A DNA stretch of 40,037 nucleotides from Pseudomonadota bacterium (GTDB taxonomy: Bacteria; Pseudomonadota; Gammaproteobacteria; Burkholderiales; JAJZQI01). The notes below the pieces were generated by a model. The model was not told where the DNA came from. It saw only the letters and a list, made by a program, of their open reading frames with translations, and did no database searches. Positions 6,190 to 8,604 of this stretch are shown here, one piece after another (positions within the stretch are counted from its first letter, which is position 1; each line of letters opens with the position of its first letter). The translations under genes were made by a program, and so were the position numbers. The stretch is taken from positions 1 through 40,037 of the forward strand of contig JAJZQI010000009.1 in NCBI GenBank assembly GCA_021851875.1, read 5' to 3'.

Positions 6190-6960
6190 TTAAAGAGGAA
6201 TGCCGGCGGCAATCTGGCGTAGCGTGGGGACGGCGAGCTTGGCCTCGTCGGCCAATTTGAGTGCGCGGGCAAGGCGGGCTGGCGCGCTGCGGCCCATGCA
6301 CTGGTGCGCGGGGTCGGCTGCAATGGCTTCGGCGAGGCCGGCGATCAGCTGTTCGCGCGGCAATTCCCACAGGGTGAGCCAGGCCTGGATGTCGAGTACC
6401 TCGTGGGCCACCTGCAGCGCAAGGTTCCGCTGATCGCGCCAGAGTTGTTCCACGTTGCCGCCCACGCGCAGTCCGGCGATGTTGCTGGTGAGGATGTACA
6501 GGTTTTTGCGTACCAATTCGTATAGCAGCGCACCGTTGTCGGCCAACTCGATGGCGGGCAAGTCAAGCGAGCGTAATGCCCTGACGAGTATGCCGGCGTG
6601 CGGGCCGAAGGCGGGCGAGGGCAGCAGCGGTTTGGCATCCATGCCCTTTTTCTTTTCAAACCAGACGGAAATGACGGTCGGCTCGAACAGCTTGTGCCGC
6701 TCCCAGTCGCGCGGCAGCAATTCGTTTTGCAGCAGGGCGGTGCGGTCACGCCAGCCGGCGGGCAGGCGGGCGAGCGTGGCGGGCAGATCGTTTTCCGCCA
6801 CGGCGACGAGCACAAACAGGGGATTGGCGTGCTGCCTGGCGATTTCATCGACGTTGTCGCCGCGGTTCACCGGAACAACGGTATGGCCGGTGCGCAACAG
6901 ACCGCCGGCGAATAAGCGGCCAAGCTGTCCGAGTCCAATGAGGATAATTTCAGAAGTCAT
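6190..6960 (-). CDS. Rossmann-fold protein, ketopantoate-reductase-like, function unknown
   Basis: A 256-residue protein whose N-terminus, EIILIGLGQLGRLFAGGLLRTGH, is a dinucleotide-binding fold with the G-x-G-x-x-G pattern. The layout (a strand ending in PVNRG, then FVLVAVAENDLP, then a helical C-terminal half with ELVRKNLYILTSNIAG) recalls ketopantoate reductase and 6-phosphogluconate-dehydrogenase-like proteins. It is shorter than PanE, and the PanE catalytic Lys/Glu set could not be placed with confidence. It is transcribed divergently from gshA. A TATAAT at 7003-6998 lies about 38 nt upstream of the ATG. I do not assign a reaction. Confidence 0.72.
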   Translation of the reverse strand: MTSEIILIGLGQLGRLFAGGLLRTGHTVVPVNRGDNVDEIARQHANPLFVLVAVAENDLPATLARLPAGWRDRTALLQNELLPRDWERHKLFEPTVISVWFEKKKGMDAKPLLPSPAFGPHAGILVRALRSLDLPAIELADNGALLYELVRKNLYILTSNIAGLRVGGNVEQLWRDQRNLALQVAHEVLDIQAWLTLWELPREQLIAGLAEAIAADPAHQCMGRSAPARLARALKLADEAKLAVPTLRQIAAGIPL

Positions 6961-6997
6961 TACTATTCTCGCGGTTGTTTTGTGCCAAACTGGACAT

Positions 6998-7003
6998 ATT
7001 ATA
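6998..7003 (-). promoter_or_regulatory. Candidate -10 element for the Rossmann-fold gene
   Basis: A perfect TATAAT on the minus strand lies 38 nt before the start codon at 6960. No convincing -35 hexamer is present at 16-19 nt, so this is only a candidate. Confidence 0.3.
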
Positions 7004-7043
7004 TGTATTCATTTTCGGATAACGAATAAGTAAAGGCACCTTG

Positions 7044-7312
7044 GAGCCTACTTCAGTAGGTTTCATTCCTTGCGCCTGTATTCTGTGGGGTGGAGTACAA
7101 GGCGCGGGGCGCGCGATTTGGCCGCACCCAATAAGCGCACCGTAACGCAGTAATCCGCCCCACAGAATACAGGCCCTCTGGGTTGACTCAGGCAAGTGAT
7201 GGATGCAAGGCGTTCGGTGCAGTGAATGGTGGTTCCATTCACCACGCCGGACAACGCCGCAGACGCGCTTGCCTGAGTCAACGCGAGGTATGAAACCTAC
7301 TGAAATAGGCTC
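7044..7312. mobile_element. MITE-like palindromic element with 23-bp terminal inverted repeats
   Basis: The ends 7044-7066 and 7290-7312 are inverted copies that match at 22 of 23 bases (outer bases GAGCCTA / TAGGCTC). Inside are two long stems. Stem A pairs 7075-7090 with 7158-7173 (16 of 16, extending inward with one G-T wobble). Stem B pairs 7182-7196 with 7268-7282 (15 of 15) and holds an inner 8-bp hairpin (7222-7229 with 7235-7242). No open frame of protein character lies inside. Such architecture is typical of non-autonomous miniature elements. No target-site duplication was obvious, and no second copy is in the window. It fills most of the 354-bp gap before gshA. Confidence 0.7.
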
Positions 7313-7314
7313 TT

Positions 7315-8604
7315 ATGGTTCCCCATCTGACAACCGCCCTGACGGGTCCGCTGCAGGATCTGGAAAAACACATTCTCAATTCCATGCCGCAGATCGAGCA
7401 CTGGTTCCGCAGCCAATGGCAGGAACACGCCGCGCCGTTTTACACCTCGGTGGACTTGCGCAATGCAGGCTTCAAGCTCGCGCCGGTGGATACCAATCTG
7501 TTTCCCGGCGGGTTTAATAATCTGAACCCGGATTTCATGCCCCTGTGCGTGCAGGCGACCATGAGCGCGGTGGAGAAGGTCTGTCCGGAAGCGCAGCGTT
7601 TCCTGCTGGTGCCGGAAAACCACACCCGCAACAGCTTCTATTTGCAGAATGTCGCAACGCTGCAATATATCCTGCGGCATGCCGGTCTGGATGTGCTGAT
7701 CGGCTCGCTGATTCCCGATCTGCCAGGCCCGTTGGAATTGCCTTTGCCCAATGGCGGAACCATTACGATCGAGCCGGTAAAGCGCGAAGGCAACCGCCTG
7801 GGGCTGAACGGTTTCGATCCCTGTGCGATTTTGCTCAACAACGATCTTTCCGGCGGGGTGCCGGAGATCCTGCAAAATCTGGAGCAAATGATTGTGCCAC
7901 CCTTGCACGCCGGCTGGGCGACGCGGAAAAAATCGCAGCATTTTGCCTGCTACAAGGAGATCGCCAACGAATTCGCCGATCTGATCGGCATTGATGCCTG
8001 GCTGATCGACCCGTTGTTCGCCCAGTGCGGCGAGATCAATTTCCAGGAGCGGCAGGGCGAGGATTGCCTGGCTTCCAACGTCGATGCGCTGTTGCAAAAA
8101 ATTGGCAGCAAATATCGGGAATACGGCATCAAGGAAGAGCCGTTTGTGATTGTCAAAGCCGACAGCGGGACCTACGGCATGGGTATCATGACGGTGAAGG
8201 ACGCGGCGGAAGTGCGGGGATTGAACCGCAAGCAGCGCAACAAGATGTCGGTAGTGAAGGAAGGCCTGGAAGTCAGCAACGTGATTTTGCAGGAGGGGGT
8301 GTACACCTTCGAGAGCATCAACGAGGCGGTGGCCGAGCCGGTGATCTACATGGTCGACCATTTTGTCGTGGGCGGCTTCTATCGCGTGCACACCGGCCGG
8401 GGGGTGAATGAAAACCTCAATGCGCCGGGCATGCATTTCGTGCCGCTGGCGTTCGAAACCAGCTGCTCTTTGCCCGATACGTGCGCCGCGCCGGATACGC
8501 CGCCCAACCGGTTTTATACCTATGGCGTGGTGGGACGGCTGGCCATGCTGGCGGCGTCGCTCGAGCTGGAGAAGTCGGACCCGGAACGGGAGAAGCTCGC
8601 GTGA
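7315..8604 (+). CDS. gshA: Glutamate-cysteine ligase, Acidithiobacillus/betaproteobacterial type
   Basis: A 429-residue enzyme that joins glutamate and cysteine using ATP, the first step of glutathione synthesis. It belongs to the GshA family described from Acidithiobacillus ferrooxidans (TIGR02049), which is unrelated in sequence to E. coli GshA. The N-terminus MVPHLTTALTGPLQDLE and internal blocks VDTNLFPGGFNNLN, PENHTRNSFYLQNV and VKADSGTYGMGIM fit that family. The ATG at 7315 lies 2 bp after the MITE-like element, so the element supplies the whole upstream region; only a weak TAGG-type ribosome site is seen. It overlaps gshB by 4 bp (GTGA). Confidence 0.93.
   Translation: MVPHLTTALTGPLQDLEKHILNSMPQIEHWFRSQWQEHAAPFYTSVDLRNAGFKLAPVDTNLFPGGFNNLNPDFMPLCVQATMSAVEKVCPEAQRFLLVPENHTRNSFYLQNVATLQYILRHAGLDVLIGSLIPDLPGPLELPLPNGGTITIEPVKREGNRLGLNGFDPCAILLNNDLSGGVPEILQNLEQMIVPPLHAGWATRKKSQHFACYKEIANEFADLIGIDAWLIDPLFAQCGEINFQERQGEDCLASNVDALLQKIGSKYREYGIKEEPFVIVKADSGTYGMGIMTVKDAAEVRGLNRKQRNKMSVVKEGLEVSNVILQEGVYTFESINEAVAEPVIYMVDHFVVGGFYRVHTGRGVNENLNAPGMHFVPLAFETSCSLPDTCAAPDTPPNRFYTYGVVGRLAMLAASLELEKSDPEREKLA

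Follow-up and report, generated by a model that had tools for sequence, protein, structure and literature searches.

The window analysed here is a stretch of 40,037 nucleotides of a Pseudomonadota genome, in which gshA, the gene for glutamate-cysteine ligase, is preceded by an element of 269 bp at positions 7044-7312. The element is laid out as a closed cloverleaf, with terminal inverted repeats (TIRs) surrounding two long hairpins, A and B (Table 1), and its left neighbour is a divergent open reading frame (6190-6960) with a ketopantoate-reductase match below threshold. A preliminary description of this DNA had given the same coordinates and length, and much of its anatomy was borne out: the outer 23 bases of the TIRs pair at 22 of 23 as claimed, the ATG of gshA stands at 7315 with two bases between it and the element end, and the nested 8-bp hairpin is present (GTGAATGG/CCATTCAC), lying inside an 18-nt repeat of 78% (7212-7229 / 7235-7252). 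As for its two perfect stems, the 15 bp given for hairpin B are correct, while the 16 bp given for hairpin A fall short by one, the outer 17 pairs being perfect. Both strands are predicted to fold as the closed cloverleaf, the + strand with -175.9 kcal/mol (mean of shuffled sequences -93.2, sd 5.2; z -15.9; none of 200 shuffles as stable) and the - strand with z -16.0, and this stability is far beyond chance.

Table 1. Positions of the element, its parts and its surroundings in the window
Feature	Position	Strand	Description
Displaced native Shine-Dalgarno-like TAAAGG	7031..7036	+	separated from the ATG by about 280 bp
Probable left target-site copy TTG	7041..7043	.	one change from TTA; sister copies with TNA duplications
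Left TIR, class Ia (GAGCCTACTTCAGTAGGTTTCAT...)	7044..7074	+	31 nt, 90% complementary to 7282-7312
Hairpin A	7074..7174	-	stem 7074-7098/7150-7174, 25 nt at 92%; conserved top inside
Hinge CCTCTGG	7175..7181	.	with neighbours CCC-TCT-GGG; family form CCC-NNN-GGG
Hairpin B	7182..7282	+	stem 7182-7196/7268-7282, 15 nt at 100%; core GATGGATGCAAGGCG...AACGCCGCAGACGC
Inner hairpin, top of B	7212..7252	.	TGG-NNNNN-CCA loop
Right TIR	7282..7312	-	contains AGG at 7307-7309, five bases 5' of the gshA ATG
Right target-site copy TTA	7313..7315	.	its last base is also the first base of the gshA ATG
gshA, glutamate-cysteine ligase	7315..8604	+	429 aa; TIGR02049 E 4.8e-190, PF08886 E 3.5e-203

When the flanks of the element are joined they give AAAGGCACCTTATGG, and joined with one TNA copy they give AAGTAAAGGCACCTTATGG, in which a normal Shine-Dalgarno sequence (AAAGG) is found six bases 5' of the ATG. 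The window copy probably inserted into the TTA of TTATGG, and the target duplication would thereby have restored the start codon of gshA; the native Shine-Dalgarno sequence, together with whatever lies upstream of it, would have been pushed 272 bp away. A comparison with the upstream regions of other gshA genes had been proposed in the preliminary description, a single copy conserved at gshA in all relatives being taken to point to a leader RNA, and no such conservation was seen. A gshA match is present in 48 of 60 relatives (the congener G001 gave none in its 85%-complete assembly); 30 gshA loci were retrieved, of which, besides our own, 28 had a readable upstream region and one (L266) did not, and the element core was absent within 400 bp upstream of all 28 orthologues (best 3-6 mismatches, against 1 in our own copy).

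The search of the genome and its relatives, likewise proposed beforehand, did reveal dispersed copies. Within the own genome (G000; 2.68 Mb, 52 contigs), where the left-TIR type of the window copy recurs, BLAST detected a second full copy with the same TIR type at C39:126674-126986, between glgB- and glgC-like genes (named by eye), as well as remnants comprising an internally deleted copy (C20), a TIR-TIR palindrome (C9) and single ends (C27, C50 and C10). Two further copies of a different TIR class (class II, TIR GGGCGTGTTAACAC) at C40:7064-7345 and C11:43862-44143 (L361 and L362) escaped BLAST when the window copy was the query and were recovered with a covariance model. These two are identical at 277 of 281 positions (98.6%) and have different flanks, and such near-identity in different surroundings indicates that movement in this lineage is recent. 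BLAST matches to the element occur in 8 of the 60 relatives, the own genome counted.

The family extends well beyond these relatives. A scan with a two-part pattern of the B core returned at least 118 stretches and, by title and among the matches listed, these come from Thiobacillus, Thiomonas, Sulfuritalea, Methylobacillus, Propionivibrio, Parasulfuritortus, Sulfuricella, Sulfuriferula, Gallionellaceae and others. R1, a model of hairpin A built from 37 hairpins (36 of 50 left after thinning plus that of the window), had matches at E 1e-4 or better in 81 genomes among the 369 sampled from the class and in 66 of 272 genera, with E-values that are rough and with the own genome matching by construction at the window. 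An automatic finder detected an enclosing inverted repeat in 18 of 20 opened hits, two of the 20 being from the own genome. The window hairpin A scores 78.6 bits with R1, of which it is itself one of the 37 rows. Tips of the class II TIR, counted with up to two mismatches, number 242 in genome G646 and 96 in G508.

Copies for comparison were taken from 119 core hits, of which 10 had no enclosing repeat (six of them at a stretch edge); of the 109 left, 82 measure 240-345 bp (81 with both flanks), 68 of these 264-268 bp, and the remaining 27 comprise solitary B hairpins, short forms and edge cases. Without L112 and L126, 80 copies served for the stem and target counts, and the alignment A1 consists of the 71 among them that measure 262-270 bp, L154 being left out. 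A rough survey of open reading frames placed 67 contexts as 30 tandem, 22 divergent and 15 convergent, with an element end no more than 20 nt from a stop codon in 32 of 60 cases and from a start codon in 21 of 74; in 14 cases a long frame overlapped the element, probably as a spurious frame. Ends so close to stop and start codons fit TNA or TA targets within those codons.

Carriage of the family as phage or plasmid cargo was considered and rejected. The exact core pattern had no match in IMG/VR, the window copy as query had none among plasmids, and copy L082 as query matched one plasmid record and no phage; this record, Azotobacter chroococcum plasmid pAcX50f, contains a whole element by eye.

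Alignment A1 shows which parts of the element are constant. Mean pairwise identity is 0.48-0.49 in the TIRs and 0.45-0.47 in the stems, compared with 0.61 in core A, 0.81 in core B, 0.92 at the GCGTTG junction and 0.84 at the hinge; the value for core B is forced by the search pattern, whereas the conservation of core A is free of this selection. Two-sided changes were observed in 73 of the 93 consensus pairs. The hairpin tops are conserved, and the stems and TIRs vary yet stay complementary.

The two hairpins are also related to one another. Hairpin A follows B, in the frame of the B strand, in all 80 pattern-found copies, whereas in the window copy A precedes B. Aligned as an inverted paralogue of B, hairpin A reached a mean local score of 32.1 across A1 against 16.1 for shuffled sequences (sd 3.3), the inverted orientation beating the direct one in 66 of 71 copies and exceeding the highest shuffled score in 35 of 71. 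For the window copy itself the comparison of A with B did not exceed the shuffled level, scoring 19 in both orientations, and R1 matches window hairpin A and, weakly (18.1 bits, E 0.043), hairpin B on one strand. Members of the family are inverted pairs of paralogous hairpin units, each composed of a TIR arm and a long hairpin with a conserved top.

The TIR tips fall into GAGCCTATT-like (class Ia), GGGCTCGTTAAT (class Ib) and GGGCSTGTT-like (class II) forms, and the TIR types of the family include GAGCCTATTTCAG and GGGCTCGTTAATGAATAAC types. An exact 3-bp flank duplication is present in 19 of 81 copies, against a shuffled mean of 9.2 and a maximum of 20 in 2000 shuffles; the window copy has TTG/TTA, with one change. 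Equal TNA flanks relate to YTA..TAR flanks as 16:3 in classes Ia and Ib and as 1:15 in class II (p 4e-6), for classes that were drawn after seeing the tips and with 13 further copies left unclassed, and 32 of the 67 copies in the three classes keep neither signature. TIR type hence tracks target type, TNA or YTA..TAR. Subgroups of the IS5 family are distinguished by similar targets, TNA in the IS1031 group and TA or YTAR in others, and targets of both sorts are found in the element family.

An exact match of 22 bases, three from the target (CTA) and 19 from the TIR, links a class II query to one end of an 830-bp stretch located on plasmids of Polaromonas sp. JS666 and Variovorax sp. SRS16. This stretch has an annotated IS5-family transposase, its other end has 3-4 mismatches over 22 bases and again ends in CTAG, and its Polaromonas frames match DUF4096 and DDE_Tnp_1. 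The class II TIR matches the end of an IS5-family insertion sequence. For class Ia, no TIR pair of insertion-sequence length was found in five genomes (four with the TIR) or in 300 genomes of the order (14 with the TIR), where the ten loci opened had no partner TIR at that length within the stretch examined, and no insertion sequence end of this type was detected among plasmids. The complete genome G044, which has at least nine full-length copies or TIR pairs of three TIR types, gave no match to the transposase families PF13340, PF01609 or PF13358. Of 27 transposase loci in element-bearing genomes, 24 gave flanking inverted repeats, none of them an element TIR by eye, and four contig ends of G646 opened for a hidden insertion sequence held elements alone. 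With no class Ia parent found, we infer from the sister class II that an IS5-like transposase also moved the TIR type of the window copy.

Two other candidates for a parent were discarded. An IS630 parent was rejected because PF13358 was matched in only one of eight element-bearing genomes, and a 2060-bp TIR pair in L078 that resembled an autonomous element is two separate elements around lpxB-like and rnhB-like genes (by eye). The IS630 idea had been prompted by L060:1660-2100, where half an element is joined to a truncated IS630-like transposase frame (named by eye).

We consider it very probable that the element is a non-autonomous type II MITE which is moved in trans, most likely by IS5-family transposases acting through the TIR tips and inserting at TNA or TA/YTAR targets. 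Its 269 bp, without coding content and bounded by TIRs of 31 nt at 90%, conform to the usual size and ends of MITEs (under about 500 bp, non-coding, TIR-bounded), and the family is dispersed in many copies with evidence of movement. The MITE reading of the preliminary description is thus supported by the dispersed copies, the TIRs, the target signatures, the absence upstream of 28 gshA orthologues and the near-identical sister-type pair within the same genome. As far as seen, only the terminal repeats are common to an insertion sequence, which is the sense of type II. The hairpin cores may be kept as an aid to mobility.

Among known systems, MITEAba12 offers a close comparison, and its insertion sequence, ISAba12, belongs to the IS5 family. 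Both MITEAba12 and the element are non-coding, TIR-bounded and multi-copy, with only the TIRs in common with an autonomous DDE insertion sequence. MITEAba12 is 113 bp long, with the TIR GGCTTTGTTGCACAAA and 9-bp duplications (PMC6382973). The element family differs in its length of about 267 bp, its two long paralogous hairpins with conserved inner cores and freely varying stems, its several TIR types, its TNA or YTAR/TA targets and its many genera, MITEAba12 being from Moraxellaceae. Correia/NEMIS elements of Neisseria consist of a single hairpin, and their TIR begins with TATAG(C/T)GGATTAAC. They resemble the element as MITEs lying just upstream of genes with a long TIR hairpin as a possible substrate of RNase III; their TIR is different, however, as the element begins with GAGCCTA. 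Correia elements also carry known promoters according to a review (PMC10969869), whereas a crude scan of the element detected none. The same review describes Chunjie of Geobacter uraniireducens, which has 235 bp, intergenic spread and shorter derivatives, and is in these respects alike by description, but an inverted pair of hairpins is no part of that description.

REPINs also consist of two inverted hairpin units in very many copies; they are moved by RAYTs (Y1_Tnp) and are not known to have long TIRs or target duplications, and the units of the element measure about 100 nt. A mobilisation of this kind, in which a dedicated structure-specific transposase would read the hairpins and move the element as single-stranded hairpin DNA, the TIR being merely self-complementary, would be in keeping with hairpin tops as the conserved part (core A), with the inverted arrangement and with the lack of a matching insertion sequence among the three families searched in the complete genome G044. 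We regard it as unlikely, as the family has TNA or TA target signatures that are tied to TIR class, and one TIR type is identical to an IS5-family end.

A further alternative is that an old insertion was domesticated as the promoter or ribosome-binding region of gshA, since the element supplies the whole immediate 5' region of the gene, including AGG five bases before the ATG. This is quite improbable: a crude consensus scan of 6940-7340 on both strands detected no sigma-70-like promoter at threshold (shuffled mean 0.4), which also leaves the internal promoter suggested in the preliminary description without support, and the AGG is paired in the predicted fold. No terminator was detected by the same kind of scan in this region (shuffled mean 0.5). 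Under the MITE reading, gshA may now start from the AGG supplied by the TIR, probably with reduced or altered efficiency, and this start may be damped or re-routed. In an mRNA begun upstream, the folding model predicts the complete fold to be present and the AGG of the TIR to be paired. RNase III cutting is reported for Correia elements in the review (PMC10969869), and by analogy such cutting could free the gshA start.

The stem mismatches bear on whether the fold is maintained as RNA or reflects mobile DNA. In the 80 copies there are 114 G-U and 118 A-C mismatches (p 0.84), in addition to 172 that are neither, 93 of these in stem A, whose arms were located by a crude method; the equality gives no sign of one strand being kept as RNA. 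The glgB-glgC copy is common to the congener G001, with 234 of 280 positions identical in the element compared with 170/200 and 258/303 in the flanks. Of its 105 ungapped pairs, 82 are unchanged, 18 have one-sided changes (nine towards or from G-T, five A-C, four other), four are compensated and one is other, and 18 pairs fall in gaps; this copy, at its one locus, shows decay in place and not upkeep. Equal G-U and A-C counts, together with decay at about the rate of the flanks, are signs of mobile DNA and not of functional RNA, and they disfavour the functional leader RNA that the preliminary description had envisaged. A structured gshA leader or regulatory RNA, or an RNA family conserved for a host function, is therefore highly improbable in spite of the very stable fold and the two-sided changes, given also the absence upstream of the gshA orthologues, the varied gene contexts, the occurrence in either orientation to gene starts within 100 bp (18 vs 23), and the results with Rfam, which gave two sub-threshold matches in 6800-7600 (best E 0.18) and none at the gathering score in five further element loci. 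The complementarity of stems with varied letters across the family is best explained, we infer, by renewal or selection at mobility.

It is usual to define bacterial MITEs by their ends and to see them as debris of one insertion sequence. In this family the inside is conserved over dozens of genera (66 of the 272 sampled), whereas ends and stems vary, and the target can be predicted from the type of end; this combination makes the role of the core in mobility and the renewal of palindromic stems testable. Tentatively, the family could be one hairpin-parasite lineage, whose folded core is read by a host or transposase factor and whose TIRs turn over to match an available IS5-like transposase; only copies with freshly matched arms would move, and every cycle of mobility would renew the stems arm from arm, after which they would decay where they lie. 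If true, the inside and not the ends would define this MITE.

The family is apparently unnamed and an unusual MITE variant, of which a prior description is possible. The preliminary description had not recognised it as a named family, in agreement with the Rfam results and with the open-licence literature searched, where six family sequence strings did not occur and no description of the element was recognised, including in the accessible portions of PMC10969869, PMC4853749, PMC6382973 and PMC12542641. MITEs are reported from Thiomargarita in one of these (PMC4853749), and for MITEs the review cites a paper on Polaromonas JS666, host of the matching insertion sequence (PMC10969869).

The copies also matter for annotation, as they often lie at start and stop codons in the rough survey and break assemblies. 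All four of the contig ends opened in G646 (L396, L397, L398 and L400), the genome with 242 TIR tips, fall inside copies, and the repeats of the element break this assembly.

Several variant forms were observed. TIR-TIR palindromes of about 40-60 bp without hairpins occur at L014 (G000:C9), L194 (G046:C5:30670-30719), L293 and L078:3501-3553, and short forms at L058, L062 and L146; these may represent successive deletions or mobile units of minimal size. In the window copy hairpin B (7182-7282) is flipped, and by eye the same holds for L022 and L023; in L086 it is hairpin A that seems, by eye, to be flipped, as if the stem arms recombine. L026 and L105 have extra GC-rich inserts of about 55-100 bp in hairpin A.
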